This document shows, in pieces, positions 47,423-63,964 of a stretch of 64,000 nucleotides of DNA. The notes beneath the pieces were generated by a model. That model ran no database searches. It was not told the DNA's origin and saw only the letters and a program-made list of their open reading frames with translations. Within the stretch, counting starts at the first letter, position 1; each line of letters begins with the position of its first letter. Made by a program: the position numbers and the translations under genes. This stretch comes from Candidatus Pantoea soli (GTDB lineage Bacteria; Pseudomonadota; Gammaproteobacteria; Enterobacterales; Enterobacteriaceae). The stretch spans positions 3,224,001 through 3,288,000 of the forward strand of contig NZ_CP032702.1 of assembly GCF_007833795.1 (NCBI RefSeq), read 5' to 3'.

Positions 47423-47775
47423 ACCGCCAGCGCATTGGCGCTGAGCAGGAGCAGCTGGCGCGCGGCTATCTTGAGCGCGCTGGCCTGCAGTGGATTGCCA
47501 GTAACGTGCGCAGCCGCAGTGGTGAAATTGACCTCATCATGCGTGATGCTGATTGCTGGGTATTTGTTGAAGTGCGCTACCGCCGCAATGCGCGCTATGG
47601 CGGCGCGGCAGCCAGCGTGACGCGCCAGAAACAACACAAGCTGCTGCGCGCGGCCGCCCTGTGGTTGCTGGCGCGCGGCGGCAGTTTTGATACGGTGAAT
47701 TGCCGTTTTGACATCATTGCCATTACCGGGTGCGAGCTGGAGTGGCTGCCCGATGCCTTTAATGCCGATGGATAG
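47380..47775 (+). CDS. yraN: UPF0102 endonuclease-fold protein YraN
   Basis: This 131-residue protein with a restriction-endonuclease-like (PD-(D/E)xK) core has GEIDLIMRD and [17 protein letters not shown] carrying the acidic and lysine/arginine positions. The start is the ATG at 47380, inside the end of lpoA, matching the E. coli length. Its biochemical role is not established. The order lpoA-yraN-diaA is as in E. coli. Confidence 0.95.
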
Positions 47776-47789
47776 AACCAGGTGGTCTT

Positions 47790-48377
47790 GTGCAGGACAG
47801 AATTAAAGCGTGTTTTACCGAAAGTATTCAGACGCAAATCGCCGCAGCCGAAGCGCTGCCCGATGCCATTTCCCGCGCCGCGATGACGCTGGTGCAGTCG
47901 CTGCTGAACGGTAACAAAATTCTCAGCTGCGGCAACGGTGCTTCCGCAGCCAACGCGCAGCACTTTGCCGCCAGCATGATTAACCGGTTTGAAACCGAGC
48001 GCCCCAGCCTGCCCGCACTGGCGCTGAGCGCAGATAACGTGATGCTGACGGCGATTGGTAACGATCGTCTGCACGATGAAATTTATGCCAAGCAGGTTCG
48101 TGCGCTTGGTCAGGCTGGCGATGTGCTGCTGGCTATCTCCACCCGTGGCAACACCCGTGACATCGTCAAAGCGGTGGAAGCTGCGGTTACCCGCGATATG
48201 ACCATTGTTGCGCTGACCGGCCATGATGGCGGTGAGCTGGCGGGCCTGCTTGGCCCGCACGATGTGGAAATTCGCATTCCGTCACATCGCAGCGCGCGCA
48301 TTCAGGAAATGCATATGCTGACGCTGAACTGCCTGTGCGATTTGATTGATAACACTTTGTTCCCACACCAGGAATGA
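47790..48377 (+). CDS. diaA: DnaA initiator-associating protein
   Basis: This 195-residue SIS-domain protein forms a tetramer that binds DnaA and promotes initiation at oriC. The start is a GTG at 47790 preceded by AGGTGG; E. coli diaA also uses GTG. SIS motifs [20 protein letters not shown] and [17 protein letters not shown] are intact. It overlaps the region just upstream of dolP in the same operon. Confidence 0.96.
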
Positions 48378-48391
48378 CTGAAGGAGCTCAA

Positions 48392-48964
48392 ATGAAAGCA
48401 TTGAACGCTATCGCCATTCTGCTAACGGCCCTGCTGCTGCAGGGCTGCGTTGCGGTGGTGGCTGGCGGCGCGGCAGTCGCCACCAAGACCGCCACCGATC
48501 CCCGTACCGTCGGTACGCAGGTGGATGATGGTACGCTGGAGCTGCGTGTCTCCAACGCGCTGGCAAAAGATGACCAGATTAAAAACCAGGCGCGCGTGGT
48601 CGTGACCGCCTATCAGGGCAAAGTGCTGCTGACCGGACAAGCGCCGTCGGCTGACCTGGCCAGCCGTGCGAAGCAGATCGCCATGGGCGTGGATGGCGCG
48701 ACCGAAGTGTACAACGAGATTCGTATCGGGCAGAAAGTGAGCCTCGGCACCTCGTCATCGGATACCTGGATCACCACCAAAATCCGTTCGCAGTTGCTGG
48801 GCAGCGATCAGGTGAAATCCTCAAACGTCAAAGTGACCACCGAGAATGGCGAGGTATTCCTGCTGGGCCTGGTGACTCAGGAAGAAGCGACCGCGGCGGC
48901 AGATATTGCCAGCCGGGTGAGCGGCGTCAAACATGTGACCACGGCGTTTACGATTCTGAAGTAA
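48392..48964 (+). CDS. dolP: Outer-membrane BON-domain lipoprotein DolP
   Basis: This 190-residue lipoprotein (E. coli YraP/DolP is 191) supports outer-membrane integrity and BAM function at division sites. The ATG at 48392 follows AAGGAG. The signal ends in LLLQGC, and two BON domains follow (~45-115 and ~120-190; VVVTAYQGKVLLTGQAP and VKVTTENGEVFLLGLV). In E. coli it is in the sigma-E regulon. It is the last gene before a terminator. Confidence 0.96.
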   Translation: MKALNAIAILLTALLLQGCVAVVAGGAAVATKTATDPRTVGTQVDDGTLELRVSNALAKDDQIKNQARVVVTAYQGKVLLTGQAPSADLASRAKQIAMGVDGATEVYNEIRIGQKVSLGTSSSDTWITTKIRSQLLGSDQVKSSNVKVTTENGEVFLLGLVTQEEATAAADIASRVSGVKHVTTAFTILK

Positions 48965-48983
48965 ACTGCAGCAAAACAGCGAC

Positions 48984-49007
48984 GGCGGCCTGCGGGCCGC
49001 CTTTTTT
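48984..49007. terminator. Terminator after dolP
   Basis: GGCGGCC, loop TGCG, GGCCGCC (48984-49001) is followed by six T residues. It lies between convergent dolP and yhaK. Confidence 0.9.
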
Positions 49008-49707
49008 ATACCGGAATATCAATCACCAGCGCGCGCAGCGGCGTGCTGGCCTGCAGGGTAATCTGCGGCTCATCACTGACAAAAGCGCCATCGCCGCAGC
49101 CGAGCTGCGCCTCGCTGGCGCTGCCAGCCTGAACATTCATGGCGCCGTGAATCGATTGCAGATAGGCGCGCGGACCGTGCAGCGGCACCGTACGGCTGAC
49201 GCCCGGCTGCAGCGTGATCTGATGCACCCACACCTGCTGGCGCAGCTGCAAACTTCCCTCCGCGCCCTCCGGCGACGCCAGCAGCAGGTGCGTCTGCGCC
49301 GGCAGCGTCATTTTCTGCAGCAGCGGGTTTTCCCGCTCCGGACAGGCAGCGAGCCACAGCTGCATCCGCGTCAGCGGGCGATCTTTACTGATGTTGATTT
49401 CGCTGTAGGTCACGCCGGGACGGGTGGACAGCAGCATCGCTTCACCGGCGCGGGCGATCAGGTGGTTGCCTTCGCTGTCACGGTATTCGGCTTCGCCCTG
49501 CAGGACCAGATTCAGCACATCCACCTGCGGATAGGTGCGCGGCTGAAATGCCGCGCCGGGCGCCAGCACTTCCTGATTCAGGACGCGCAGCGAGGCGTAT
49601 CCCATCAGCTGCGGGTCAAAATAGTGGCCAAACGAAAAGCTGTAACGCGCCTGCAACCAACCGAAATCGGCCTGGCCACATGCGGACGCGCAGCGGGTTG
49701 TCATCAT
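49006..49707 (-). CDS. yhaK: Pirin-family bicupin YhaK
   Basis: This 233-residue bicupin matches E. coli YhaK through its length (for example GWLQARYSFSFGHYFDPQLMGYASLRVLN split over the first strands, and LHGPRAYLQSIHGAMN). YhaK is reported as a redox-sensitive pirin-like protein lacking one set of metal ligands. GGAGG precedes two ATGs (49707 and 49704). It is divergent from the LysR gene yhaJ, its probable regulator. Confidence 0.93.
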   Translation of the reverse strand: MMTTRCASACGQADFGWLQARYSFSFGHYFDPQLMGYASLRVLNQEVLAPGAAFQPRTYPQVDVLNLVLQGEAEYRDSEGNHLIARAGEAMLLSTRPGVTYSEINISKDRPLTRMQLWLAACPERENPLLQKMTLPAQTHLLLASPEGAEGSLQLRQQVWVHQITLQPGVSRTVPLHGPRAYLQSIHGAMNVQAGSASEAQLGCGDGAFVSDEPQITLQASTPLRALVIDIPV

Positions 49708-49836
49708 GATTTACCTCCGACGCACCGTGGTCAGAATCGACCACAGGCTTTATGGGTCAATGGTAAAAGGCTGGACGCCGGATTGTTAGCCAGTTAATCT
49801 GCCTGGCATATTCAAATTTACTGACAGAGAATCGGT

Positions 49837-50736
49837 ATGGCTAAAGAGCGCGCGCTAACGTTAGAAGCTTTACGTGTGATGGATGCTATTGACCGGCGCG
49901 GCAGCTTTGCCGCCGCGGCTGATGAACTGGGCCGCGTTCCCTCCGCCCTCAGCTACACCATGCAGAAGCTGGAAGAGGAGCTGGACGTGGTGCTGTTTGA
50001 CCGCTCCGGCCACCGCACGAAATTTACCAACGTTGGACGCATGCTGCTGGAGCGCGGTCGCGTGCTGCTGGAAGCGGCCGATAAACTCACCACCGATGCC
50101 GAAGCGCTGGCTCGCGGCTGGGAAACGCACCTGACCATCGTTGCCGAAGCGCTGATTCCCACTGAACTGCTGTTCCCGCTGGTGGAGAAGCTGTCCGAAA
50201 AAGCCAATACGCAGATTTCCCTGATCACCGAAGTGCTGGCCGGCGCCTGGGAGCGGCTGGAACAGGGACGCGCAGATATTGTGATTGCGCCGGATATGCA
50301 CTTCCGCGCCTCAACCGAGATCAACACACGCAAGCTGTACAGCATCATGAGCGTGTATGTCGCCAGCCCCGATCACCCGATTCATCAGGAAGCGGAGCCG
50401 CTTTCAGAAGTCACGCGCGTCAAGTACCGCGGCATTGCCGTGGCGGACACCGCGCGCGAGCGCCCGGTGCTGACGGTACAGCTGCTGGATAAACAGCAGC
50501 GCCTGACGGTCAGCAGTATGGATGACAAACGCCGTGCGCTGCTGGCCGGACTGGGCGTGGCCACCATGCCCTATCCGCTGGTGGAGAAAGATATCGCTGA
50601 AGGTCGCCTGCGCGTGGTGAGCGCCGAATATACCCGCGAAGTGGATATCATCATGGCATGGCGCCGGGACAGCATGGGCGAGGCCAAAGCCTGGTGCCTG
50701 CGCGAAATTCCGCGGCTGCTGACGAAGCGCGGATAA
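49837..50736 (+). CDS. yhaJ: LysR family regulator YhaJ
   Basis: This 299-residue LysR-type regulator is almost identical to E. coli YhaJ in its first 110 residues. The helix-turn-helix GSFAAAADELGRVPSALSYT is followed by the substrate-binding domain (~90-295). YhaJ activates yhaK and yqjF and responds to aromatic nitro-compound breakdown products in E. coli. The divergent yhaK promoter (49708-49836) is the likely target. An upstream yqjF is also in this window. Confidence 0.96.
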   Translation: MAKERALTLEALRVMDAIDRRGSFAAAADELGRVPSALSYTMQKLEEELDVVLFDRSGHRTKFTNVGRMLLERGRVLLEAADKLTTDAEALARGWETHLTIVAEALIPTELLFPLVEKLSEKANTQISLITEVLAGAWERLEQGRADIVIAPDMHFRASTEINTRKLYSIMSVYVASPDHPIHQEAEPLSEVTRVKYRGIAVADTARERPVLTVQLLDKQQRLTVSSMDDKRRALLAGLGVATMPYPLVEKDIAEGRLRVVSAEYTREVDIIMAWRRDSMGEAKAWCLREIPRLLTKRG

Positions 50737-50758
50737 GCCGCCGGCCCCGCGACGCGGC

Positions 50759-52669
50759 TTACAGCCGGCTGAGGCAATCCATCGCCACGGCCTTGAAACT
50801 GGCGAAATCCCGGCAGTTGCGCAGACGCGATGTGGCGCGTTCGCGCAGAAAGGTGACGAACAGATCGTAAATCGCCATTGCCTCTTCATATTCGCGTTTG
50901 CTGATTGCCAGCAGAAAAATCACCGTGGCGGTCTCATCACCCCAGCTGACACCGTGCGGGGCCAGCACGGTATAGACCACGCTTTTTTTTGCCAGCAGCC
51001 CCAGCGCGTGCGGCAGCGCAATGCCCTCTCCGAGCAGCGTGCTGACAATCGCTTCACGCTCCACCACCGAGGGGCAGAAATCGCTATCCACATACCCTTC
51101 CGCCTCCAGCTGTGCGCACAGCTGCTGAAACAGCGCTGACTGATCGACCGGCTGGTCCAGCACCATAAAGTGCTGCGCATCAAAGTATTTCTCCAGCATA
51201 TAAGGTCGGGTGCGATCCACCAGCACCAGTTTACCCAGCTGTTCCAGCTGAAATTCCGTGGGGAACGGGGCCATGACCACCACCGGCTTGTTTTTCTCAC
51301 TCAGGCGCACGGTGGAAATCACAAAATCCTCTTCCACCTGGTCACGCCTCTCGTAGTCGCGCTGCGACAGGCGCGCCGTCACCACCAGCTGCGGATATTT
51401 ACGCAACAGCAGCGCTTCAATCATGCGCAGCGTGGAGTTGCCGCTGTCGCACACCAGCAGCACCTGCGGATGCCGCTGATAGCCGACATCGTAATGGCGC
51501 TCCAGCCCGACGCCGATATGCAGCACCAGGAAGCCAATTTCGTTTTCACTGATGGTATAGGGCGTGTATTTACCCCAGCTGGTCACGGCAGCCAGCGTCA
51601 CATCATAAGCCATTGGATAGTGCTGCTTGATGTTGCTGAGCAGCGGGTTCGGAATGTGAATCTGATAGCGCACCCGGGTAATCATGGTTTTGATATGGGT
51701 AAGCAGATCGGCGCGCAGCTGTTCGTCCTGCTGCAGCCGGTAGTTGTAATGGGTATTGATATAGCTCAGCAGGTAATCAACCAGCGCATCCGCGTCATCG
51801 GCGTTGATGGTGCTGGGGGCCTGCGCCTGGATCTGCCGCGCGGCAATGTTGACCCGCAGCCAGTTCTCCTCAGCCTGCGAGACCGGTTTGCCCACCAGCG
51901 GACGCAGCAGAGTGACCAGATGGTGCGCTGCGGCGCGGACCTCTGCCCCCACCTCTTCCGCGCCGGGGTCATTAAGCGGGAAGCCTTCGCTGATGCGGCG
52001 CACCGCCACGGCACAGTAAATCAGCAGATAGCGCTCACCCTCATCGCTCAGGCGGATGGCATGGCCGGTAAAGCAGCGCTGCAGCAGCGGCTGCAGCTGC
52101 GCCAGCAGGCCAGCGTCAAGCGCTTCGACGGTCAGCAGCGGGCTGTCCGGGGTGTCCTGATCAATTTGCCACAGCAGGTCGGTCAGGCAGGTGCGGATCG
52201 CCGCCTCGCTGCCGAACAGCTTCATGCCATAGCGCGGCCGGGTTTCAATTGTCAGCAGGTAGCGTCCCAGCCACTCGCGTACATCGGCCATATCGCCCTG
52301 CAGCGTGGCGCGACTGACAAACCACTCTTCAGAGAGATCTTCCAGCTTGAGCGAATAGGTGGCGGTAAGAAAACGGCACAGCAGATAGCGTACGCGATCC
52401 TGCGCCGTGCGCGGCACCCGCAGCGGGGCGGCGCGCTCAGCCTGCAGCTGGCCGAAACGCGATGCGTCATCAATCTTCAGCTGATAACCTGCGCCACGCG
52501 CCAGCACAAACCGGGCGCCATGCTGCGCCAGCAGCGCATTCAGTGCGGTCATGTCGGTGCGCACCGTGCGCGTTGACACCGAAAAGCGCCGCGCCAGTTC
52601 ATCCTGCGGCAGCGTTTCGTTTTGCAGCGCAGCAAAAAGTTGCGCCAGGCGCTGATTAGGAAATCTCAC
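50759..52669 (-). CDS. PRD-containing transcriptional activator, MtlR/BglG type, with PTS EIIB and EIIA modules
   Basis: This is a 636-residue regulator. Residues ~10-70 form the helix-turn-helix (LPQDELARRFSVSTRTVRTD). Two PTS-regulation domains span ~180-400. An EIIB-like module (~410-500) has a Cys in VLLVCDSGNSTLRMIEALL, and an EIIA-like module (~500-636) has a His in EGIALPHALGLL. All these sites can be phosphorylated by HPr or EII proteins, so it senses PTS activity. It is the last gene of the nine-gene cluster reading leftward from 58292 and its likely regulator, probably acting at DNA as MtlR does. Confidence 0.88.
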   Translation of the reverse strand: MRFPNQRLAQLFAALQNETLPQDELARRFSVSTRTVRTDMTALNALLAQHGARFVLARGAGYQLKIDDASRFGQLQAERAAPLRVPRTAQDRVRYLLCRFLTATYSLKLEDLSEEWFVSRATLQGDMADVREWLGRYLLTIETRPRYGMKLFGSEAAIRTCLTDLLWQIDQDTPDSPLLTVEALDAGLLAQLQPLLQRCFTGHAIRLSDEGERYLLIYCAVAVRRISEGFPLNDPGAEEVGAEVRAAAHHLVTLLRPLVGKPVSQAEENWLRVNIAARQIQAQAPSTINADDADALVDYLLSYINTHYNYRLQQDEQLRADLLTHIKTMITRVRYQIHIPNPLLSNIKQHYPMAYDVTLAAVTSWGKYTPYTISENEIGFLVLHIGVGLERHYDVGYQRHPQVLLVCDSGNSTLRMIEALLLRKYPQLVVTARLSQRDYERRDQVEEDFVISTVRLSEKNKPVVVMAPFPTEFQLEQLGKLVLVDRTRPYMLEKYFDAQHFMVLDQPVDQSALFQQLCAQLEAEGYVDSDFCPSVVEREAIVSTLLGEGIALPHALGLLAKKSVVYTVLAPHGVSWGDETATVIFLLAISKREYEEAMAIYDLFVTFLRERATSRLRNCRDFASFKAVAMDCLSRL

Positions 52670-52693
52670 GGAACCTCACCTGTGGCTGAGTGA

Positions 52694-53431
52694 TTACAGC
52701 AGTTCCCTGCACGTTGCCAGAAGCTGACGCACGTCGTCAACGCGCGTCTCGCCGCTGGCGCGGTCAATGATCGCACTGTAAACGTGGGGGATCACTTTGC
52801 TCACGCCGGCCTCCAGCGCAATCCGTACGATCGCGGCAAAGTTCGTGAGATCGATACCGCCGGTAGGTTCCAGCCAGAAATCGCGTCGCGCACAGGCTTC
52901 CGCCACCGCGCGATACTCTGCAACCGCCTGCAGGCCGCCCATCGGGAAGTACTTCAGCGCGCTGCCGCCCATGTCCTGCAGCATGGCGATGGCGGTATCC
53001 ACCGGCACGATGGCATCCGCCGCCTGCGCGCTGCGCGGCCCGGTCGAGATTTTTACCTGTCCCGGCGTGCCGGTGGGTGATACCAGACCATTAACGAGAG
53101 TGTGCGGTTGGCCCAGTAACGCCCGGCTGGTCGCGACGCCGGTGAACACCTGATTAACGTGCTGCGGCTGCAGCGCCGCGGCAATTTCACTGACCATCGC
53201 GGACTGTGCCGGATCGCCGGCACCCAGCCCGATCGACAGCGCATTATCCGTCAGCGCAGCGTAGTCGCGCATATCGGCAATCGCCGCCTCGGTGGTGGTG
53301 TAGTGCTTTGACAATACGCCCACCAGCACGTGCCCTTCGGCTGCCAGCCAGATGTCCCTGGCATTCTGTTTTGAACCCGCCAGCACGTTGAGGCACAGCC
53401 GGCCCTGATAAAAATTCGGGAAAAGATTCAT
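52694..53431 (-). CDS. 2-keto-3-deoxy-6-phosphogluconate aldolase, DgaF-like
   Basis: This 245-residue class I aldolase-type TIM barrel carries the likely Schiff-base lysine in GSALKYFPMGG and phosphate-site glycines in EPTGGIDLTNF. It corresponds to the family I recall as EF_0839/AHA_3917 (TIGR03581) and to Salmonella DgaF, which splits KDGP into pyruvate and glyceraldehyde-3-phosphate. It overlaps the DgaE-like gene by 4 bases (ATGA). Confidence 0.85.
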   Translation of the reverse strand: MNLFPNFYQGRLCLNVLAGSKQNARDIWLAAEGHVLVGVLSKHYTTTEAAIADMRDYAALTDNALSIGLGAGDPAQSAMVSEIAAALQPQHVNQVFTGVATSRALLGQPHTLVNGLVSPTGTPGQVKISTGPRSAQAADAIVPVDTAIAMLQDMGGSALKYFPMGGLQAVAEYRAVAEACARRDFWLEPTGGIDLTNFAAIVRIALEAGVSKVIPHVYSAIIDRASGETRVDDVRQLLATCRELL

Positions 53432-54549
53432 GCCCGGCCTCCTTCATTCAGCAGCGCCTGAATGCGGCTGAAAATGGTATGCAGCTGTGCGGCGCTGACG
53501 CTGCGCACATCCGCCTCAATAATGCCTTCGTTGGCCTTGTAACCGCGGAAGTAGATAGCGATGTCGCCGCTTTTCAGCGCCTGCACCAGTTCGCCGGTCG
53601 GCCAGCCGGTCAGCGCTTCATCAAAAGCGATTTCAGCCCGGGCGATATCGCGCCCGGCGCTATCCCACACCACGCGCGCGGTCACGCCTGGCAGCGTATT
53701 GAGGTTATCGATAAATGGTGTCATGTGCGTGACCATCTCCGCACCGCCGGTTTTGCTTTTGAGCTGATAATTTTCAATCGCCTGCGTCAGGCCCAGAATG
53801 GCCTCTTTGGCCACTTTCATGGCGCGGCCGATGCCGTTGCTCTGGCGTTTGACCCAGGCAACCTGCTGGCTGCGGCCAATCACCAGACCGCTGCCCGGCC
53901 CCTCAATCGCCTTGGCTCCGCTGTAAATCACCAGATCCGCGCCCATGCGGTAGTAACACTGCAGATCCTCTTCTGCGGCTGCATCCACAATCAGCGGTAC
54001 GCCGTGCTGGTGCGCCACCGCCGCTGCCTGCTCAACGCTAAGGTGGCTTTTCTGCACGCAGTGATGTGATTTCACGTAGAGCAGCGCGGCGGTATTCGGT
54101 GTAATGGCTGCCGCCAGCTGCTGCGGTGAACACTCATTGCTGTAACCGGCTTCCACCAGACGTCCGCCGCCCAGCGCCACCATGGTGCCAACCGGCGCGC
54201 CGTAATTCACGTTGTGGCCTTTTGGCATCACGATGTCGTGCGGCACGCTAAGCGGTGCAGCGTGCAGGTTATCCCGCAGCCAGTCATCCTCTTTGACAAT
54301 CACCGCCGCCACGCTTTGTGCAAGGCCGGCCGAGGCACATGACACCACCACCGCGCTCTCCACCTCCAGCAGCCTGGCGATGTAAGCTCCGGTTTTATCC
54401 ACCAGATCCTGCATCTCAAAATAGTGGCTCAGGCCGTAACGCACGGTCTCTGCCACATCGTCAGACGGTGTGGAGACGCCGAGGATGGTCATGCGCCCCG
54501 AGGCGTTGATCACCTGTTTCAGACCATATTTTTCATAAATCGAAGACAT
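53428..54549 (-). CDS. PLP-dependent DgaE-like ammonia-lyase (D-glucosaminate-6-phosphate type)
   Basis: This 373-residue fold-type I PLP enzyme has the cofactor lysine in VIYSGAKAIEGPGSGLVIG and the aspartate in VPLIVDAAAEEDL. It resembles selenocysteine synthase-like proteins and Salmonella DgaE, which turns D-glucosaminate-6-phosphate into KDGP plus ammonia. I chose the ATG at 54549 (MSSIYEKYGLKQVINASGR) because GAAGGGAAAG precedes it and the longer frame lies inside the amidohydrolase gene. It is coupled to both neighbours. Confidence 0.85.
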   Translation of the reverse strand: MSSIYEKYGLKQVINASGRMTILGVSTPSDDVAETVRYGLSHYFEMQDLVDKTGAYIARLLEVESAVVVSCASAGLAQSVAAVIVKEDDWLRDNLHAAPLSVPHDIVMPKGHNVNYGAPVGTMVALGGGRLVEAGYSNECSPQQLAAAITPNTAALLYVKSHHCVQKSHLSVEQAAAVAHQHGVPLIVDAAAEEDLQCYYRMGADLVIYSGAKAIEGPGSGLVIGRSQQVAWVKRQSNGIGRAMKVAKEAILGLTQAIENYQLKSKTGGAEMVTHMTPFIDNLNTLPGVTARVVWDSAGRDIARAEIAFDEALTGWPTGELVQALKSGDIAIYFRGYKANEGIIEADVRSVSAAQLHTIFSRIQALLNEGGRA

Positions 54550-55666
54550 GATTGGCTTTCCCTTCATCGGTAAGATGCCACTGGCCCGCGATAACGACGG
54601 CCAGCGGCAGCAGCTGTTGCGCACCCGTGATCCGCTCACCCTCTGCATCCGTGAACGGCCGGGCTTCCTCTTTGACGGTAAAAATGGTCAGGTCGGCGTC
54701 GTACCCTTCAGCCAGCCGCCCTTTGCTGTGCAGGCGCAGGTTCGCCGCGGCGTGGTCAGTCACGCAGGCAATGACCTGCGGCAGCGTCATGCCAAGGCTG
54801 AGAAATTTCGACATGACGTGAGCCAGGCTGTGCACCGGCCCGTGCAGACGGTTGCGGCAGTAAATGTCCGAGCTGATGGTGTCGGGCAGCAGGCCCTGCG
54901 CAATCGCCTGCCGCGCCACCGCAAAGCTGAAACTGGCGCTGCCATGACCGATATCCAGCTTCACGCCGCGCGCAATCGCCTGTTTGACCGCCGCCTTCAG
55001 GGTGCCCTGCGGCGATAAAATGCGGTTTGGCTTGCCGTTGAAGCAGTGGGTAATAATGTCGCCTGACGTCAGCAGCGCGGCGATCTCTTCCAGCACCGGC
55101 GGGTTATTGCCAATGTGTACCATCAGCGGCAGATGGCCTGCCGCCTGCTGAATGGCTTTGGCGCGCACCAGCGGCTGAAGGCCGTTTTCGCCCACCACGC
55201 TGCTGCTCATCCGCGCCTTCAGGCCGATGATAAATTCCGGCCGGCGCTGCACCGCCTGCACCACGGCCTCACCGTCGATTTTTGCCATGTCGGCCAGCTC
55301 ATTCTGCGTCACGATGCCGGTGCGTGAGATATTGATCAGCGCGCGCACATCGGTGATGGCGGATCGGGTGAGCTGCCAGAAATCGTCGATATGGTCAGCG
55401 CCGGTGCTGCCCGCATCCACGACCGTGCTCACTCCCTGGGCCACACCGATGGCATCGGCTTCGTCGTGATAAATCGGTGAATGCGGATAGCAGTGCACAT
55501 GGCTGTCGATCCAGCCGGCGCTGACATAGTAACGCCCGCCAAGGTCGCGCTCCTGCTGCGCGGTCCCCTGCACGTCACCAACCGCCACGATTTTGCCGTG
55601 CCGGAGGGCGATGTCAGCCAGCTGTTCATCGCATAACCGCGCACGGCGCAAAATCAGGTCAAACAT
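54533..55666 (-). CDS. Amidohydrolase/deacetylase-type metallohydrolase (EF_0837-like)
   Basis: This 377-residue amidohydrolase-superfamily enzyme has metal ligands in WIDSHVHCYPH, a candidate carbamylated Lys in LKARMSSSVVG, His in LMVHIGNNPP and ITHCFNGKPN, and Asp in KLDIGHGSASF. The family (TIGR03583 as I recall) is found in this cluster type; the reaction is unproven. Hydrolysis of an N-acyl or cyclic amide feeding the DgaE step is the likely role. I prefer the ATG at 55666, 9 bases after GGAGG. Its end overlaps the DgaE-like gene by 17 bases. Confidence 0.85.
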   Translation of the reverse strand: MFDLILRRARLCDEQLADIALRHGKIVAVGDVQGTAQQERDLGGRYYVSAGWIDSHVHCYPHSPIYHDEADAIGVAQGVSTVVDAGSTGADHIDDFWQLTRSAITDVRALINISRTGIVTQNELADMAKIDGEAVVQAVQRRPEFIIGLKARMSSSVVGENGLQPLVRAKAIQQAAGHLPLMVHIGNNPPVLEEIAALLTSGDIITHCFNGKPNRILSPQGTLKAAVKQAIARGVKLDIGHGSASFSFAVARQAIAQGLLPDTISSDIYCRNRLHGPVHSLAHVMSKFLSLGMTLPQVIACVTDHAAANLRLHSKGRLAEGYDADLTIFTVKEEARPFTDAEGERITGAQQLLPLAVVIAGQWHLTDEGKANHVFDL

Positions 55667-55706
55667 AAAAGCCTCCATTGTGGGCATGCATCACCCGCCC
55701 TGTCGC

Positions 55707-56354
55707 TTACAGCGAAACCGGGAAGAAAGCGCCCAGTACCATGGCCCCCAGAATCGCGCCACCGGTAATCGGTTTATTCCACAGGTAAAACAGGAGTGCC
55801 CCGAGCAGCGATCCCAGTCCGATCGGAATCGATGCCGTTATCGCTGAGAGGATAATCAGCGGCCCGAGAAAACGGCCCGAGGCATTCCCGGCCCCCATCA
55901 TGACGTCAGCTCCGTAGGTGGAGTCGCTCTGGTTAATGGTGAACTTCCGCGCAAGGATAATGACGTAGCCAATCGCCACCCCGATGACCAGCCCGGTTGC
56001 CAGGGAGGCAGCAAAGTTAGCCACCGGAAACACAATGCCCGCCCCCAGCAGCAGCGCCGGCACGCCAAGGCCAACCCCGGTCTGAATGGCCCCGCCGATA
56101 TCCAGGATGCCCACCAGCGAGCCCTCAATGATGCGTGCGAACAGGAAGCTGGCCCCAAACGCCGCCACCGCGCCATAGACGCCGGTTTCCATACCGGATC
56201 GCAGCATGGAGACAAACGCCACTTCGTTAAACGCGCCAATGCCATACAGGTAATACATGTGCGTTCCGGCAAAGACCCCGGCTGACAGCAGGCCAACAAA
56301 GATCGGAAATGACCAGTCGGCGTACCAGAACCCTTTGTTTTCGCTTTCGTTCAT
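55707..56354 (-). CDS. DUF4310 membrane protein (EF_0833-like), putative transporter subunit
   Basis: This 215-residue protein has six or more hydrophobic spans and glycine-rich helices (AFVSMLRSGMETGVYGAVAAF, DIGGAIQTGVGLGVPALLLG, LGPLIILSAITASIPIGLGS). It matches the DUF4310 family, which occurs only with the other members of this cluster. No transport mechanism has been described that I know of. With DUF4311 it probably forms the membrane part of an importer. Confidence 0.82.
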   Translation of the reverse strand: MNESENKGFWYADWSFPIFVGLLSAGVFAGTHMYYLYGIGAFNEVAFVSMLRSGMETGVYGAVAAFGASFLFARIIEGSLVGILDIGGAIQTGVGLGVPALLLGAGIVFPVANFAASLATGLVIGVAIGYVIILARKFTINQSDSTYGADVMMGAGNASGRFLGPLIILSAITASIPIGLGSLLGALLFYLWNKPITGGAILGAMVLGAFFPVSL

Positions 56355-56366
56355 CTGCCTGCCTCC

Positions 56367-57143
56367 TTATTTGCCGCTCAGGCTGTTGTGGATCATATCG
56401 AGCCAGCCAGGGATGCCGAGCTGGAAGGATTGCAGCAGCTTCATGTCAAAGCCGCGGAAGAAGCCGCTCAGCACAAACAGCAGCACAATGGCAAACATCA
56501 TCACGCGCGTAACCCGGTTCCAGCCGCTCTCTTCCACGCCTTTGCCTATCAGAATGCCCAGCACCAGGCCCGGCACGGCGTTGCCCATGATCAGCTGCGC
56601 CAGGCCGCCGAAGATGGTGGCCCAGAAGCCGGATTTTTTGCCGGCATCAATCGCGGCCAGCCAGAAAATCACCGGCATGACGGTGTTCACCAGCAGGTTG
56701 GCAGCCGGCACCAGCACTTTTACCGCCGTCACCTGCAGCGCGGCCGGTACCGCCGATGCAGTACTGTTCAAAAAGGCCACCACGATCATGCCGATGATCC
56801 CGCAGGCAATCGCCATGCGCTTAGGGTTGTGCAGCGTTTCCGCGACGTTACGGTTTTTCACCATCAGCGCGGCTGCGCCCCAGTTCGGCAGGATGCGGTG
56901 GTCAACGTCCTGCGTGAAGGAACCGGCCGCCACTGAAGAAGCCCAGGCGTTGAAGAAAAAGCCCAGCCCAAAGGAGAAATGCGAAGCCGGATCGCCCTCG
57001 CAGGCGTTGAGCTCACCCAGCGTACGAAACGCGCCCATGCCCTGGGTGACTGGCGCGTGGAACATGCGGGCGGCACCGGCACCGACGCCCACGCCGACCA
57101 GTCCGCCGATGATCAACGACTTAAACAAAATGATTAGAAACAT
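56367..57143 (-). CDS. DUF4311 membrane protein (EF_0832-like), putative transporter subunit
   Basis: This 258-residue membrane protein has about seven hydrophobic spans. A conserved-looking polar stretch (LGELNACEGDPASHFSFGLG) precedes a membrane segment and could shape a substrate path. It belongs to the DUF4311 family, which is tied to this operon type. The start at 57143 follows AAGGG. It lies 12 bases upstream of DUF4310, so they form one translational unit. Confidence 0.82.
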   Translation of the reverse strand: MFLIILFKSLIIGGLVGVGVGAGAARMFHAPVTQGMGAFRTLGELNACEGDPASHFSFGLGFFFNAWASSVAAGSFTQDVDHRILPNWGAAALMVKNRNVAETLHNPKRMAIACGIIGMIVVAFLNSTASAVPAALQVTAVKVLVPAANLLVNTVMPVIFWLAAIDAGKKSGFWATIFGGLAQLIMGNAVPGLVLGILIGKGVEESGWNRVTRVMMFAIVLLFVLSGFFRGFDMKLLQSFQLGIPGWLDMIHNSLSGK

Positions 57144-57277
57144 GCTGTGACCCTTGTTGTCGTTATGGTTGGCCTGACGCGGCAGGCTGCAGGCGCGCGG
57201 TGCGGGTATCGCGGGCCGTTGCCGCCGGCAGCCGGTCGGTTCGCCCGCAGCCGGTGCAGCGTGCCGGCCGTCGTCAT

Positions 57278-57583
57278 TCAGGGTGCCGCCGTGAAAGCCA
57301 CCTCTTCGGTGTCGATCACGGTGACGCTGACAGTGATGTCCAGTTCGACGCTGTAGTGCCGCCGTTCACGCGCGAGGAAGAAAAACAGAAATTTCTCCGT
57401 GCGCACCCGCTCCTGCGCGCGCAGCACCCGCACATCCAGCGGTTCGATGCGCAGCAGGATCTTCTGGCTGGTCCGCAGCACCTGCTGCTGCACCTTGCTG
57501 AGCGCATCAGCGAAGGCTTTGGCTTTACTGTCGCCGCTGCCCTGCACGGTGACCTGCGTCTGATATTGCTGTTTCATACTCAA
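57278..57583 (-). CDS. DUF4312 small soluble protein (EF_0831-like)
   Basis: This 101-residue cytoplasmic alpha/beta protein without signal or membrane segments has YQTQVTVQGSGDSKAKAFADA and a basic/aromatic block ERVRTEKFLFFFLARERRHY. It matches DUF4312. The role is unknown, possibly an accessory or energy-coupling subunit of the neighbouring membrane proteins. It overlaps the SFCGS gene by 4 bases. A 134-bp GC-rich gap with no clear gene separates it from DUF4311. Confidence 0.8.
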   Translation of the reverse strand: MSMKQQYQTQVTVQGSGDSKAKAFADALSKVQQQVLRTSQKILLRIEPLDVRVLRAQERVRTEKFLFFFLARERRHYSVELDITVSVTVIDTEEVAFTAAP

Positions 57584-57936
57584 CTGCCGTGCTTCTTGTT
57601 CCAGGCCTGCACCAGGCGCTCACCCAGTTCCTCTTTATCCATAAAACCAAAGCCGAGTACGGTGGCGCCTTCGTTGATCGCGGTTACGCCCTCGTCCACC
57701 GAGCGCATGCCGTGTTTCGCTTTATAGCCATATTTGTTCTGCGCGGTGATCGCCCCAGCGCCGCCGCTGCCGCAGAAGGAGATGCCGAAGTCTGCGTTTT
57801 CCGCTTTCATCACATCCCCCAGTTTCATATCCGCCGCCACGCCCGGCACCACCACTGCCCGGCCACCCGCTTTCTCAATGCCTGCGGCCACTTTCTGGCC
57901 TTTACCCAGGCGATCGCCAATCACTACCGTTACCAT
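57580..57936 (-). CDS. Glycine-rich SFCGS-family protein (EF_0830-like)
   Basis: This 118-residue soluble protein is named for the conserved SFCGSGGAGA motif (Cys55). The motif follows a beta-strand-like segment and looks like the phosphocysteine loop of PTS EIIB proteins (C-G-x-G-x-x-x-S), although it is in mid-protein. The ATG at 57936 follows GAGGAG; an ATG at 57957 is not preceded by a site. The family (TIGR03577 as I recall) has no known function. A phosphocarrier or ligand-binding role is my inference. Confidence 0.8.
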   Translation of the reverse strand: MVTVVIGDRLGKGQKVAAGIEKAGGRAVVVPGVAADMKLGDVMKAENADFGISFCGSGGAGAITAQNKYGYKAKHGMRSVDEGVTAINEGATVLGFGFMDKEELGERLVQAWNKKHGS

Positions 57937-57953
57937 GTGCCACTCCTCTGTGA

Positions 57954-58292
57954 TCATGCTTCGTTTGATTTCGCCACTTCGATATGTACCGAAAGCAGCC
58001 AGGCTTCTTCCACCGGCAGATTGCCAAACAGATCGACCACCTCCTGCGCCAGCGCCAGCGTGGCGGGCGGGATGTCCTCAAACAGGTCGGCGTCGACGTC
58101 CGGTAGCGCTTCGCCGGTCAGAGAGCGTGCCGCCATTGCCCGCACGTGCGCAGCCAGCATCTGCTGCTGCACGGCGTTGGCTTCGATATGGTGGGCGGCA
58201 TAGATCGCCGCAATCCGGGACAGCACGTTATCTGCCAGCGCCTGAATCGCTTCCGGTGCGCCTGGTTTCAGGGGGACAGCATCACTCCTCAC
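57954..58292 (-). CDS. Stand-alone PRD protein (EF_0829-like)
   Basis: This 112-residue protein consists of a single PTS-regulation domain with histidines in AAHVRAMAARSL and WLLSVHIEVAK, the usual phosphorylation positions, and no DNA-binding part. It is the first gene of the cluster and starts at a GTG with AGGAG 9 bases upstream. It may modulate the full-length MtlR-type regulator encoded at the far end. The family (TIGR03582 as I recall) occurs in the same operon in Enterococcus and Aeromonas. Confidence 0.82.
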   Translation of the reverse strand: MRSDAVPLKPGAPEAIQALADNVLSRIAAIYAAHHIEANAVQQQMLAAHVRAMAARSLTGEALPDVDADLFEDIPPATLALAQEVVDLFGNLPVEEAWLLSVHIEVAKSNEA

Positions 58293-58554
58293 CTCGTTAC
58301 TCCTGTTACAGCGGACAATTACAGATAATTCGCGTTGAAAAGAAATTACGCTTTCCGCTAACGGGTTTGGAGACGCAACTTTTCCACCTGAAAGTGGAAA
58401 TCACGCGGGCACGGGTGCGCCAGATCGCAGGATGCACGATGCGTGCAATCACAGGCGTTCAGGCGGGCAAAGCAGAGGTTTTATCGCAGGAGAACGGCGA
58501 AGTGTGCGCCGGACAGCGCAGCAGGCAGGCCAGCCCGGCGGCTGGCCTCAGAAA
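58293..58554. promoter_or_regulatory. Promoter region of the nine-gene cluster
   Basis: 262 bases between the PRD gene and cybC contain the inverted repeat TTCCAC-CTGAAA-GTGGAA at 58382-58399, about 90 bp upstream of the first gene. It is a good candidate operator for the MtlR-type regulator. No sigma-54 promoter of the kind that drives Salmonella dga is evident. Confidence 0.55.
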
Positions 58555-58941
58555 TCAGCGGAATTTCTTATGGTTGACGTTGCGAATCTCTTCCAGTTTT
58601 TTCGCTTCGGTTTTGGCCTGATCCAGCTTGTTGGCTTTCGCCAGCTGATCGACCACATCAATCTGCGCGATCAGCGAATCAAGACCGGCATGGTAATCTT
58701 TGATTTCGGCGCTGTCGGCCGCTTTGCCTTCCAGACGGTCCGGCGTGGATTTTTTGGCATCCTGAGCCGCGGCGCGCATCTTACCGAGGGCAGTCTGCAT
58801 TTCCTGAGCATTGGTGGTCTTCTTCACCACGCTCAGCCCGTCTTTCAGCGTATCCATATCCTGCTCCAGATCGGCCGCAAAGACGCTGGCAGAGGAGAAC
58901 AGTAACGACAGAGACAACATGGCAATCAGATGCTTACGCAT
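58555..58941 (-). CDS. cybC: Soluble cytochrome b562
   Basis: This 128-residue periplasmic four-helix-bundle haem protein has a signal peptide ending in ASVFA before ADLEQDMDTLKD. Axial ligands are Met7 of the mature protein and the His in RNVNHKKFR, both conserved. Length equals E. coli CybC. It lies downstream of pmbA, as in E. coli, but has its own ribosome site (AAGGAACACGTT). Confidence 0.95.
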   Translation of the reverse strand: MRKHLIAMLSLSLLFSSASVFAADLEQDMDTLKDGLSVVKKTTNAQEMQTALGKMRAAAQDAKKSTPDRLEGKAADSAEIKDYHAGLDSLIAQIDVVDQLAKANKLDQAKTEAKKLEEIRNVNHKKFR

Positions 58942-58970
58942 AACGTGTTCCTTTTAATTATTATCGGGCG

Positions 58971-58998
58971 AAAAAAAAGCAGCCTCCCGGGCTGCTTT
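58971..58998 (-). terminator. Terminator after pmbA
   Basis: AAAGCAGCC (58976-58984) pairs with GGCTGCTTT (58990-58998), followed by eight T residues on the minus strand. It separates pmbA from cybC. Confidence 0.9.
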
Positions 58999-59012
58999 CA
59001 TCAGACGATGAC

Positions 59013-60353
59013 TTATTGTCCGGCGATCTTCATCTCCGGGAGCAGCACCGAACCGCATTGTATATTGCTGCGTGTTTCAATGTCGTTACCCACCGTTACC
59101 ATATTGCGCCACATATCGTTAAGGTTACCGGCAATTGTGATCTCGCTCACAGGATATTGAATCTCGCCGTTTTCCACCCAGAAACCGGCGGCACCGCGCG
59201 AGTAGTCACCGGTCATGGCGCTGACGCTGGAACCCATCAGCTCTGTCACGATCAGACCGCGTCCCATCTGCTTTACCAGATCGTCAAAGCTGTGGCCCTG
59301 ACCCGCGATACGCCAGTTATGAATCCCGCCGGCATGGCCGGTACTTTTCAGTCCCAGCTTGCGCGCCGAATAGCTGGTCAGCAGCCAGTTCTGCAGCACG
59401 CCGTCTTTAATGATGTCACGCGCTTCAGTGCGCACGCCTTCGCTGTCGAACGGCGTAGAGGCCAGGCCTTTCAGCAGATGCGGCTTCTCTTCAATGCTCA
59501 GCCACGACGGGAAAATCTGTTTGCCCAGCGCATCCAGCAGGAAAGTGGATTTGCGATAAACGCTGCTGCCGGCAATCATGCCCACCAAATGGCCAAACAG
59601 GCCGGTGGCCACTTCCGGCGCGAACAGCACCGGCGCTTTCATGGTCGGCAGCTTACGCGGCGACAGACGCGCCAGCACGCGGCGGGCACACTCCGCGCCC
59701 ACCCAGCCGGCGCTCTGCAGATCCGCAATGGAACGACCAATGGTGTAAGCGTAATCGCGCTCCATATCCCCGTTCTGTTCAGCAATGACCGAAGCCGACA
59801 GCGAATGGCGGCTGGAGCAGTAGCTCTGCAGCATACCGTGGCTGTTGCCGAAGACTTTAATGCCGACGTGGCTGTTGAAGCTGCCGCCCTCAGTATTGGT
59901 AATGCGCGCGTCCGCCTGCAGCGCGGCCTGCTCAGCCTGAGCCGCCAGCTCAATGGCGCGATCGGCGTCGATCTCCCACGGATGGTAGAGATCCAGATCC
60001 GGCGCTTCAAAGGCCAGCAGATCGCGGTCCGCCGGCGCGGCGTAAGGATCGGGAGAGGTGTAACGCGCGATATCGATCGCCGCCTGCACGGTGCGCTTAA
60101 TGGCATCCGGACTGAGATCGGTAGAGGAAGCACTGCCTTTGCGGTTCTGATGATAGACGGTGATACCGAGCGCACCATCGCTGTTGAATTCGACGTTTTC
60201 CACTTCGCCGTAGCGGGTACTGACACCGATGCCGGTGGTTTTCGTGACCGCCACTTCTGCTCCATCGGTGCTGGCTTTCGCCAGTTCCAGCGCCTGCGCG
60301 ACAGCCTGTTCTAACACTTTACGTTGTTCTGCAACCTGAGTAGATACGTTCAT
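59013..60353 (-). CDS. pmbA: Metalloprotease-like PmbA (TldE)
   Basis: This 446-residue partner of TldD takes part in maturation of microcin B17 and CcdA turnover. It has PmbA segments [44 protein letters not shown] and [21 protein letters not shown]. TldE subunits lack the HExxH of TldD, and none is visible here. It is divergent from darP, as in E. coli, and followed by a terminator. Confidence 0.96.
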
Positions 60354-60468
60354 CGACCTGCCGTCTAATCTTAAGTATGAATGTAGTGAGTCTATCAGAC
60401 TCAGAGAACAATTTCGCAGTCGTCCGATAAACTGGTAGGATTAGCCTCTTTTTTTTAGGAGCCAAGAT

Positions 60469-61008
60469 ATGACCAGGCAACCCGAAGACTGGCTCGACGA
60501 TGTGCCCGATAATCAGGAAGAAGATGAAGAGATTATCTGGGTCAGCAAGAGCGAAATTAAACGCGACGCTGAAGAGCTGAAACGCCTTGGTGCCGAGTTA
60601 GTAGAGCTGGGGAAAAACTCCCTGGATAAGATCCCACTCGACGAGGATCTGCGTGCCGCCATTGAACTGGCACAGCGCATTAAGATGGAAGGCCGTCGTC
60701 GCCAGCTGCAGCTGATCGGCAAGATGCTGCGTCAGCGTGATGAAGAGCCGATCCGCCAGGCGCTGGATAAGCTGAAAAACCGTCACAACCAGCAGGTTGC
60801 GCTGTTCCACAAGCTGGAGCAACTGCGCGATCGTCTGATAGAAAAAGGCGATGATGCGGTGGCGGAAGTGCTGAACCTCTATCCGCACGCCGACCGTCAG
60901 CAGCTGCGCAGTATGATCCGCAACGCGCAGAAAGAGAAAGCGGCCAGCAAGCCACCGAAATCTGCCCGGCAGATCTTCCAGTATCTGCGCGAGCTGGCCG
61001 AGGCGTAA
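60469..61008 (+). CDS. darP: Dual-action ribosomal maturation protein DarP (YjgA)
   Basis: This 179-residue helical, highly charged protein acts in late 50S subunit assembly. It has an acidic N-terminus ([20 protein letters not shown]) and the conserved [19 protein letters not shown]. The ATG follows a TTTTTTAGGAG site. It is divergent from pmbA and convergent with mpl. Confidence 0.95.
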
Positions 61009-61026
61009 CGCCGCCGCCCGCGACTG

Positions 61027-61072
61027 CCCTCACCCCGAGCGTCTCCCGCAGGCGCGCGAGACGGGATGAGGG
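61027..61072. repeat. REP-like hairpin between darP and mpl
   Basis: CCCTCACCCCGAGCGTCTCC and GAGACGGGATGAGGG can form an imperfect long stem. It resembles the CCCTCACCC/GGGTGAGGG intergenic repeats common in enterics, in degenerate form. It sits between convergent genes, where REP elements usually occur. Confidence 0.5.
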
Positions 61073-61092
61073 CCAGCGCGGCCCTTCCTTTA

Positions 61093-62445
61093 TTACGCTA
61101 ACCGATCCAGCAGCTTCTGGTGAATACCACCGAAGCCGCCGTTACTCATCACCAGAATCGAATCACCGGGCTGCGCAGCTTTCGCCACCATCTCCACCAG
61201 CGTATCAATATCTGCCGTCCAGTGGGCAGGCTGAATGCAGGCCTCGGCCACGTCAGACACCTGCCACGGAATGTGATGCGGCTGGAACAGGAACACTTCA
61301 TCGGCGCGTCCCAGCGACGGCGCGAGATCGTTTTTGCTGACGCCCATTTTCATGGTGTTTGAGCGCGGCTCCAGCACCGCTAGGATGCGCGCCCGACCGC
61401 CGACTTTACTGCGCAGCGCTGCCAGCGTGGCGTGGATCGCCGTCGGATGGTGAGCGAAGTCGTCGTAAACTTTTATGCCATTGACTTCCCCGCGCAGCTC
61501 CAGACGACGCCGTGCGTTGATAAAGCTGCTGAGCGCGTCGCCGGCATCGGCCGGGCGCACGCCAACATGCCGGGCGGCAGCCACCGCCATCAGGCCGTTG
61601 TGCATGTTGTGTTCACCGACCAGCGACCAGTTCACCTCACCCGCTTTTTCGCCATCCAGCCAGATCTCCCAGCGTGAGGCATCCGGCGTCAGCTTTTTCG
61701 CCTGCCAGCGGCCGTTATCGCCGGCGGTCTCCTGCTCGCTCCAGCAGCCCATCGCCATCACCTGTTTGAGATTGTGATCGTGCTCCGGCAGCAGGATGCG
61801 GCCCTGGCCCGGCACAATGCGGATCAGGTGATGGAACTGCTTCTGAATGGCGCGCAGATCGTCAAAGATATCGGCGTGATCGAACTCAAGGTTGTTGAGG
61901 ATCAGCGTACGCGGGCAGTAGTGCACGAACTTGGAACGCTTGTCGAAAAACGCACAGTCATACTCATCCGCTTCAATCACGAAGAATGGACTTTTTCCTA
62001 ATTTTGCCGAAACGTCGAAGTTTCCCGGTACCCCACCAATAATGAAGCCCGGTTCAAGGCCGCAGGCCTCAAGAATCCACGCTGCCATGCCGGCTGTGGT
62101 GGTTTTACCGTGGGTGCCGGCCACCGCCAGCACCCAGCGATCGCGCAGCACGAAATCGTGCAGCCATTGCGGGCCAGACAGGTAAGGAATGTTGCGTTCC
62201 AGGACCGCTTCCACACAGGGATTGCCGCGCGTCATGGCGTTACCGATAATCACCAGATCCGGCTGCGGGTCCAGCTGGGCGGCATCATAACCTTCTGTTA
62301 ATTCAATGCCTTGCTGCTCCAGCAGCGTGCTCATCGGCGGGTAAACGTTGGCATCTGAACCGGTCACTTCGTGTCCCAGCGAGCGCGCCAGCATTGCCAG
62401 TCCGCCCATGAAAGTGCCGCAAATCCCAAGGATGTGAATACGCAT
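61093..62445 (-). CDS. mpl: UDP-MurNAc:L-Ala-gamma-D-Glu-meso-DAP ligase
   Basis: This Mur-ligase-family enzyme of 450 residues attaches recycled murein tripeptide to UDP-MurNAc. It has the N-terminal MRIHILGICGTFMGGLAMLA, ATP P-loop GTHGKTTTAGM, and VYDDFAHHPTAIHATL. I use the ATG at 62445, as in E. coli Mpl, rather than one four codons earlier. It is divergent from fbp. Confidence 0.97.
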   Translation of the reverse strand: MRIHILGICGTFMGGLAMLARSLGHEVTGSDANVYPPMSTLLEQQGIELTEGYDAAQLDPQPDLVIIGNAMTRGNPCVEAVLERNIPYLSGPQWLHDFVLRDRWVLAVAGTHGKTTTAGMAAWILEACGLEPGFIIGGVPGNFDVSAKLGKSPFFVIEADEYDCAFFDKRSKFVHYCPRTLILNNLEFDHADIFDDLRAIQKQFHHLIRIVPGQGRILLPEHDHNLKQVMAMGCWSEQETAGDNGRWQAKKLTPDASRWEIWLDGEKAGEVNWSLVGEHNMHNGLMAVAAARHVGVRPADAGDALSSFINARRRLELRGEVNGIKVYDDFAHHPTAIHATLAALRSKVGGRARILAVLEPRSNTMKMGVSKNDLAPSLGRADEVFLFQPHHIPWQVSDVAEACIQPAHWTADIDTLVEMVAKAAQPGDSILVMSNGGFGGIHQKLLDRLA

Positions 62446-62613
62446 AAAGAGATCCATTACTCAAAAGTTCGGCGCACAGTGTAACGCCGAGTCAGAAGGG
62501 AAGAAACGGATTAGGACTATGGTTTTTGAAGTTCAATCGGCTAAACTGCGTACGCATACGTTGGCAGTTTGTTACAGCTGCTGCCACTCCATCGTAGATT
62601 CAGGGAATGTGTT

Positions 62614-63621: not shown

Positions 63622-63640
63622 CGCCTGCGCTTCTGCCTTC

Positions 63641-63664
63641 AGCCCGCCTCAGTGCGGGCTTTTT
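63641..63664. terminator. Terminator after fbp
   Basis: AGCCCGC, loop CTCAGT, GCGGGCT is followed by TTTT. It overlaps the 3' end of the convergent sfsB-like gene. Confidence 0.85.
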
Positions 63665-63927: not shown

Positions 63928-63964
63928 GCGCACTCTCCTTTGTCCGCTTATCCATTCCAGTAAC

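Follow-up and report, generated by a model that had tools for sequence, protein, structure and literature searches.

We analyzed a nine-gene operon carried by a 64,000-nt stretch of the genome of Candidatus Pantoea soli (contig NZ_CP032702.1, positions 3,224,001–3,288,000; this whole stretch is called the window below). The operon encodes a stand-alone PRD-domain protein, an SFCGS protein, a DUF4312 protein, two membrane proteins (DUF4311 and DUF4310), an amidohydrolase, a DgaE-family ammonia-lyase dependent on pyridoxal phosphate (PLP), the aldolase DgaF and a transcription regulator (Table 1). With moderate confidence, we interpret it as an operon that breaks down an N-acylated 2-amino-2-deoxy aldonic acid; this substrate is most likely N-acetyl-D-glucosaminate (GlcNAc1A) or a near relative, which the module formed by the first five proteins (the DUF module) would import, possibly with energy from the phosphotransferase system (PTS). 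The new element is the evidence that the DUF set occupies the place of the importer and appears to behave like a phosphorylating one.

Gene neighborhoods and transporter replacement

The cluster is a real member of a conserved set that had already been described. The original prediction assigned it to the set EF_0829–EF_0839 of Enterococcus and AHA_3910–AHA_3917 of Aeromonas, and indeed seven of the seven models of this set (TIGR03577–TIGR03583) were exceeded in the window at the curated NCBIfam cut-offs. From 419 genome-contig relatives, the best 80 were kept (L032–L111; all Enterobacterales by name). All nine genes stand in the same order in 78 of these loci, and the other two (L041 and L081) end at contig edges; because the same nine genes recur in the same order, the arrangement is not due to chance. 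Fifteen additional loci (Enterococcus, Bartonella, Klebsiella, Salmonella, a wastewater record labeled as a Listeria phage and ten other genomes) all carry the complete set of nine as well. In the Enterococcus and Listeria-labeled loci, a weakly similar regulator is placed upstream, and about 3.1 kb separate dgaF from the regulator in L129. The enzymes were present in each of the 93 complete loci and none of these (0/93) held the DUF set without them; these loci were located through DUF4310 or DUF4311, and enzymes lacking the DUF set were sought separately. The apparatus initially described as four-part has five parts, since the PRD protein accompanies SFCGS, DUF4312, DUF4311 and DUF4310 in every locus examined.

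The separate search covered plasmid records (194 for DgaE, 203 for the amidohydrolase and 13 for the DgaF of a relative), from which five DUF-less loci with incomplete gene tables were examined; DUF4311 was found in six plasmid records, all different from those of these five loci. In Lacticaseibacillus, the EIIA-B-C-D genes of a mannose-family PTS immediately precede dgaE-dgaF. C. difficile combines a lactose-family PTS, a MupG-type protein, the amidohydrolase, dgaE, dgaF and a sugar kinase, and Priestia presents the genes of the three enzymes (amidohydrolase, dgaE and dgaF) together with those of a sugar kinase and a gluconate:H+ symporter. The Niallia locus, read by tblastn, contains a lactose-type EIIC, an EIIB part, MupG, the three enzymes and a PfkB kinase. 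A known transporter was therefore found beside the enzymes in four of the four close DUF-less loci examined. The Rhizobium locus also harbors an ATP-binding cassette transporter, yet its DgaE-like protein is only about 35% identical, and it was excluded from the close cases. No SFCGS gene is annotated in the Lacticaseibacillus, C. difficile and Priestia versions, and none was found by search in Niallia.

Because known transporters take the place of the module in these loci, the DUF module is likely the importer, as originally proposed. This role also agrees with the constant presence of the enzymes in DUF loci, and fits less well with E. faecalis, whose operon adds a lactose-family PTS EIIC, a MupG-type hydrolase and a kinase to the DUF set. 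For the same reason, the statement that the cluster contains no PTS permease is correct for the window but does not extend to the whole set. In three Bacillota (L117, 13620–16352; L155, 5316–7848; L157, 4227–6905), a lactose-family EIIC and a MupG-type hydrolase precede amidohydrolase-DgaE-DgaF-kinase, perhaps for a disaccharide ending in the same acid. Two further observations concern E. faecalis L117: a 99-aa membrane-like protein without Pfam or NCBIfam match is encoded between EIIC and MupG (14959–15255), and dgaF (18573–19300) is unannotated and matches in two pieces, such that it may be interrupted.

Possible phosphorylation of the substrate

PfkB queries from three loci were searched against 101 stretches (tblastn, 1e-5), and matches were obtained only in E. 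faecalis (L117), C. difficile (L155), Priestia (L153) and Niallia (L157). No PfkB was detected in 95 DUF-type stretches (the 80 Enterobacterales loci, L118–L131 and positions 45001–64000 of the window), several of which are incomplete, with other kinase families and the rest of the genomes not searched; the same search found none in the mannose-PTS version of Lacticaseibacillus either. E. faecalis is the sole DUF version with a PfkB kinase and it also possesses EIIC and MupG. Lactose- and mannose-type EIIC were likewise not found in the 95 stretches, and a mannose EIIB query yielded a single match (L076; 26% identity) near the locus end, about 9 kb from DUF4310. Because PfkB and EIIC are not found beside the DUF module, and PfkB is not found beside the mannose PTS, the DUF versions look like the phosphorylating PTS version and not like the symporter version.

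A 55.7-kb plasmid of Bartonella sp. HY406 carries the operon, and the regulator gene is immediately followed there by one for an EI-HPr fusion; matches in Bartonella HY761 indicate the same operon and EI-HPr arrangement. This shows that PTS phosphoryl supply travels with the operon in Bartonella. A relative of this EI-HPr from Caballeronia grimmiae (55% identical), the only annotated one of the two relatives opened, has a ptsG IIBC alongside. The suggestion that the module may deliver a phosphorylated substrate is thus favored indirectly, by the lack of PfkB beside the module, by the Bartonella EI-HPr and by an arginine triad kept in DgaE, although this triad does not discriminate (see below).

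Enzymes and substrate

In the solved D-glucosaminate-6-phosphate ammonia-lyase (DGL), the phosphate was docked near Arg301, Arg332 and Arg346, and His162 and His163 are also named in the accessible part of the article (PMC9529869). The DgaE of the window retains the equivalents of all these residues and the PLP lysine. Across 12 DgaE sequences, the arginine triad is kept in 11 (lost in Rhizobium L156), His162 in 11 (alanine in Bartonella) and His163 in 12. We discarded the triad as a test of substrate phosphorylation: Priestia keeps it too. The label of DgaE-like enzyme that was initially given holds at the level of the family (TIGR01437), but the protein misses NF047797, the equivalog for D-glucosaminate-6-phosphate ammonia-lyase (369 against 600 bits). 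DgaF exceeds the equivalog cut-off for 2-keto-3-deoxy-6-phosphogluconate (KDGP) aldolase, which predicts this activity. The EF_0837-family hydrolase, whose relatives in the PDB include 8wzy and 2ics, is expected to remove the acyl group, judging from the names of its Pfam and NCBIfam families.

In Klebsiella, a beta-propeller lactonase gene separates dgaF from the regulator gene; such a lactonase was also detected in 39 of the 80 loci. Because lactonase genes with signal-like N-termini are present (two were read, L119 of Klebsiella and L111), we suggest that a lactone is opened before uptake. Together, the amidohydrolase, the lactonase and DgaE/DgaF point to an N-acylated 2-amino aldonic acid, for which N-acetyl-D-glucosaminate is the best candidate. 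The ong pathway offers a tested precedent, running from GlcNAc1A to D-glucosaminate (GlcN1A), 2-keto-3-deoxygluconate (KDG) and KDGP, as far as the available part of the article describes it (PMC9537276). In two Aeromonas strains, OngB and OngC had only distant counterparts or none, according to the part available of another study (PMC11653859). The names of the TIGR models list Aeromonas members (AHA_39xx), and the only named Aeromonas copy encountered is broken: in Aeromonas caviae NZ_AP026896.1 (L158, 9789–10343), an internal deletion interrupts the cluster, the DUF4310 match stops at residue 41 and DgaF picks up near residue 98. The amidohydrolase and DgaE matches are gone from this locus, which retains the regulator, PRD, SFCGS, DUF4312 and DUF4311.

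Proteins of the DUF module

SFCGS is not an orphan, but a probable remote relative of RpiB/LacAB and YhfU. SFCGS matched DUF2620 (YhfU; E = 0.0028) and LacAB_rpiB PF02502 (E = 0.018, 15.5 bits) in Pfam, as well as an RpiB model of NCBIfam (E = 0.0007), all below cut-off (24.7 bits gathering for PF02502). We then scanned profiles against 8,408 open reading frames from the fetched loci, using reversed sequences as decoys. The best outside matches of the SFCGS profile were a DUF2620 protein (0.0048) and the RpiB of its own genome (0.015; best decoy 0.67), and those of the DUF2620 profile were PF02502 proteins (0.0078) and SFCGS (0.014; best decoy 0.091). With the RpiB profile, SFCGS came next after the other PF02502 proteins (0.0052; best decoy 0.70). 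Taken one by one, these values are weak, and it is their mutual agreement that supports remote homology, and remote homology only, between SFCGS, DUF2620/YhfU and RpiB. By hhalign, SFCGS matched DUF2620 (E = 0.0056) and RpiB (E = 0.0063), but with a probability of 6% each, and DUF2620 against RpiB gave 0.14; the best solved RpiB matched SFCGS with E = 0.7 by profile and 1.3 by sequence. The profiles are shallow (effective number of sequences, Neff, of about 1.5–2), which limits all profile comparisons, positive and negative alike. BLASTP returned no match between SFCGS and YhfU or between the PRD protein and YhfY. The cysteine of the CGSG motif is invariant in SFCGS (19/19), and a cysteine is likewise kept in 6 of 6 DUF2620 proteins.

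SFCGS and DUF4312 of L059 were modeled with AlphaFold2 as one joined chain (pLDDT 82.9, pTM 0.52), in which SFCGS presents alternating strands and helices and DUF4312 a beta-alpha-beta-beta arrangement. The structure matches of DUF4312 were artificial RecA concatemers (4.5e-7) and fused hemoglobins (0.002); no single stretch passed, and we rejected them as repeated-chain artifacts. PRD domains are best known as regulators. In the stand-alone PRD protein, His49, Arg56 and Glu96 are invariant in 16 of 16 aligned sequences, two of which come from yhf operons (YhfY of E. coli and a Cetobacterium protein).

For the two membrane proteins, no PTS EII domain was found in the window at E up to 1 (Pfam and NCBIfam), nor any PTS family in those of L118 and L120 at E up to 10 (Pfam). 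DUF4311 matched DUF2232 below the Pfam cut-off (E = 0.07 in the window and 0.011 in L120, 3254–4030); DUF2232 is linked to energy-coupling factor (ECF) transporters, and this weak match may point to an ECF-like fold. Searches of solved structures gave nothing better than E = 0.35 for DUF4311 and DUF4310, and no homology was detected between the two proteins. YhfT showed no significant match to either of them by BLASTP, hhalign or HMM scan: BLASTP gave E = 0.022 with DUF4311 over a 46-residue piece only, hhalign 0.13 and 0.11 with shallow profiles, and HMM scans 4–6 against a best decoy of 0.15. No functional study of the DUF set was found in the literature searched, most subscription papers lying outside its reach; STM4446 is mentioned once, in PMC11000858.

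Mean pairwise identity over 91 loci reached 89% for DUF4311, 89% for DUF4310 and 85% for SFCGS, compared with 68–77% for the three enzymes, 63% for DUF4312 and 63% for PRD. This slower change of DUF4311, DUF4310 and SFCGS would suit a membrane complex whose parts are packed tightly. In Pantoea eucrina LMG 5346 (L044, 8838–9113), the end of DUF4312 is out of register with its relatives, by sequencing error or decay.

Wider distribution

Among 247 genomes sampled from the order, 31 contain DUF4310 (own genome counted; one match is a 31-position fragment). A sample of 398 genomes from the phylum yielded 12, all of them within the family of the window, and 14 control genomes yielded none. At G048:C3:34717-34809, DUF4310 is reduced to a remnant of 31 positions, suggesting cluster loss. 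The best-matching named loci are those of Pantoea (97% DUF4310 identity). No match to the DUF4311-DUF4310 DNA of the window was found in 20,395 E. coli records, and no relative was present among 89 pattern matches on viral contigs. SFCGS and DUF4311 have one copy each in their own genome, where no additional copy was found.

Operon layout and regulation

The nine open reading frames of the window all lie on the minus strand, from 58292 down to 50759, which agrees with the cluster as first delineated from overlaps and short gaps. Overlaps of 4 nt were observed for PRD/SFCGS and DgaE/DgaF, and for SFCGS/DUF4312 if DUF4312 starts at TTG; the amidohydrolase and DgaE frames overlap as well, and the remaining gaps range from 12 to 134 nt. 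A LysR-type regulator gene (49837–50736), convergent with the cluster, resembles PunR (176 bits, cut-off 345).

Table 1. Genes of the operon and candidate operator in the window, with family scores and cut-offs
Feature	Position	Strand	Evidence
PRD-domain protein, 112 aa	57954..58292	-	TIGR03582, 113.6 bits (cut-off 69.35)
SFCGS protein, putative remote relative of RpiB/LacAB and DUF2620	57580..57957	-	TIGR03577/PF14272, 221 bits (cut-off 141.1)
DUF4312 protein, 99–101 aa	57278..57583	-	TIGR03578, 129.5 bits (cut-off 89.65)
DUF4311 membrane protein, 258 aa	56367..57143	-	TIGR03580, 504.7 bits (cut-off 301.1); hydrophobic segments
DUF4310 membrane protein, 215 aa	55707..56354	-	TIGR03579, 388.5 bits (cut-off 215.45); hydrophobic segments
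Amidohydrolase/deacetylase, EF_0837 family	54533..55687	-	TIGR03583, 534.6 bits (cut-off 432.15)
DgaE-family PLP ammonia-lyase, start codon uncertain	53428..54567	-	TIGR01437, 568.2 bits (cut-off 385.3)
DgaF, predicted KDGP aldolase	52694..53431	-	NF047796, 367.9 bits (cut-off 300); TIGR03581, 379.4 bits (cut-off 222.4); PF07071
Transcription regulator	50759..52669	-	HTH_11, Mga, two PRD stretches and PTS_EIIA_2 (Pfam domain search)
Inverted repeat TTTCCAC-N6-GTGGAAA, candidate operator	58381..58400		Upstream of the operon

The 20-bp palindrome upstream of the operon has a single exact copy in the 4.63-Mb genome, is absent from 100 shuffles of the window and showed the strongest conservation when upstream regions were aligned. 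Exact copies were found in 44 of the 80 loci (L032–L111), as well as in Klebsiella L119, Salmonella L121 and L129; the other 36 have no exact copy. We consider this palindrome a candidate operator, to which the PRD/EIIA regulator might bind. L108 contains a second exact copy (18569–18588), at a distance from the start of the operon. The promoter of ef_0839 or ef_2975, genes called strictly identical, was recovered in a screen for urine-active promoters, as stated in the accessible part of that report (PMC2912369).

Proposed pathway and alternative explanations

In the pathway that we propose, a probably secreted lactonase would open the lactone in many relatives and the PRD-SFCGS-DUF4312-DUF4311-DUF4310 module would import the acid, as the transporter swap suggests. 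The substrate would be phosphorylated on entry or soon after, and the amidohydrolase, judging from its family, would remove the acyl group. The DgaE-like enzyme, with its conserved residues, would then eliminate ammonia to give KDGP, which DgaF is predicted to cleave into pyruvate and glyceraldehyde-3-phosphate. The PRD/EIIA regulator may couple expression to PTS phosphorylation, perhaps at the palindrome. A bolder version, which we regard as rather unlikely, is a PTS-like phosphorylating importer made from non-PTS parts: HPr would phosphorylate His49 of the PRD protein (in the role of EIIA), which would pass the group to the SFCGS cysteine (in the role of EIIB), while DUF4311/DUF4310 and DUF4312 would translocate and phosphorylate the acid; the yhf operon of E. 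coli (YhfY, YhfU and YhfT) would be a second branch of such systems.

Several observations weigh against our interpretation. The NF047797 cut-off is missed by four of four cluster proteins (369 in the window and 359–374 in L117–L119), and the exact substrate may therefore differ. The arginine triad is kept in Priestia, whose transporter is non-phosphorylating, and is hence silent on the timing of phosphorylation. The absence of PfkB holds only for the operon neighborhoods searched, and a kinase may lie elsewhere in the genomes; the PRD/EIIA-domain regulator may be the sole user of the Bartonella EI-HPr. E. faecalis holds the DUF set and a PTS EIIC together. Finally, LPMO_10 was not found in the own genome, so this organism would not itself derive GlcNAc1A from chitin by that route.

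Some of these points fit other explanations. The module could be a non-phosphorylating secondary transporter, with a kinase encoded elsewhere acting on the acid or on KDG and the PRD protein only regulating; we consider this possible but doubtful. DUF4310 and DUF4311 indeed have no recognized PTS EII domain, Priestia pairs the same enzyme families with a symporter and a kinase, and regulation is the best-known role of PRD domains, but PfkB was not found beside the module in the 95 stretches, although the symporter and lactose-PTS versions keep one, and EI-HPr accompanies the Bartonella copy. We regard it as unlikely that SFCGS itself acts in the pathway as an isomerase or epimerase, with a different aminosugar acid as the substrate: the similarity to RpiB/LacAB and DUF2620, the conserved CGSG/CGTG cysteine and the missed DgaE equivalog would suit such an enzyme, yet the DUF-less versions show no SFCGS gene (by annotation, and by search in Niallia) and yhf pairs an SFCGS-like protein with a PRD and a membrane protein while having other enzymes. 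Still less probable is an auxiliary membrane complex (sensor or enzyme) with uptake through another transporter. The lactose-family EIIC beside the full DUF set of E. faecalis and the resemblance of SFCGS to a sugar-phosphate isomerase family speak for it; against it, the nine-gene cluster of the window includes no recognized transporter, and the four close DUF-less versions examined all present one.

The DUF4310/4311/4312/SFCGS set, labeled "hypothetical equivalog" in the curated family library, was seen in Klebsiella, Salmonella, Serratia, Pantoea, Bartonella and Enterococcus, among others. The evidence from the transporter swap, kinases and EI-HPr turns "function unknown" into a testable claim of a new importer class. 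It also provides a candidate GlcNAc1A route for Aeromonas, where OngB/OngC relatives are distant or not found in the part of the work available (PMC11653859), and connects this design with yhf, an unexplained operon of E. coli.

Comparison with known systems

The Salmonella dga operon (DgaABCD mannose-family PTS with DgaE and DgaF) has in common with the window a DgaE-family ammonia-lyase, the DgaF aldolase and the phosphate-site residues. In the window, PRD-SFCGS-DUF4312-DUF4311-DUF4310 stands in place of the mannose-family PTS, an amidohydrolase is added and DgaE falls below the equivalog cut-off. The ong cluster of Pseudoalteromonas follows the same logic of deacetylation, ammonia elimination and KDGP, but differs, in the part of the article available, by a deacetylase nearest to D-aminoacylases, another deaminase, a sodium symporter and a KdgK kinase acting after deamination (PMC9537276). 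The E. faecalis operon EF_0829–EF_0839 differs from the window by extra genes for EIIC, the 99-aa membrane-like protein, MupG and the kinase. RpiB/LacAB and SFCGS have a CGTG-like cysteine motif and the C-terminal half in common, whereas SFCGS scores only 15.5 bits against a cut-off of 24.7 and, in the loci seen, was never encountered apart from the membrane module.

The yhf operon of E. coli (yhfS–yhfZ) and its Cetobacterium relative encode a PRD protein, an RpiB-like DUF2620 protein (YhfU), the membrane protein YhfT, a phosphotriesterase (PTE)-family hydrolase and PLP enzymes. YhfY matches TIGR03582 below cut-off (E = 1.6e-6, 28 bits). YhfT is a single polytopic protein of 434 aa, and this operon has neither DUF4312 nor DgaF. 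Because yhf and the window share a core (PRD, RpiB-like and membrane proteins) but differ in their catabolic enzymes, this core would have to do with transport or regulation and not with a single reaction.

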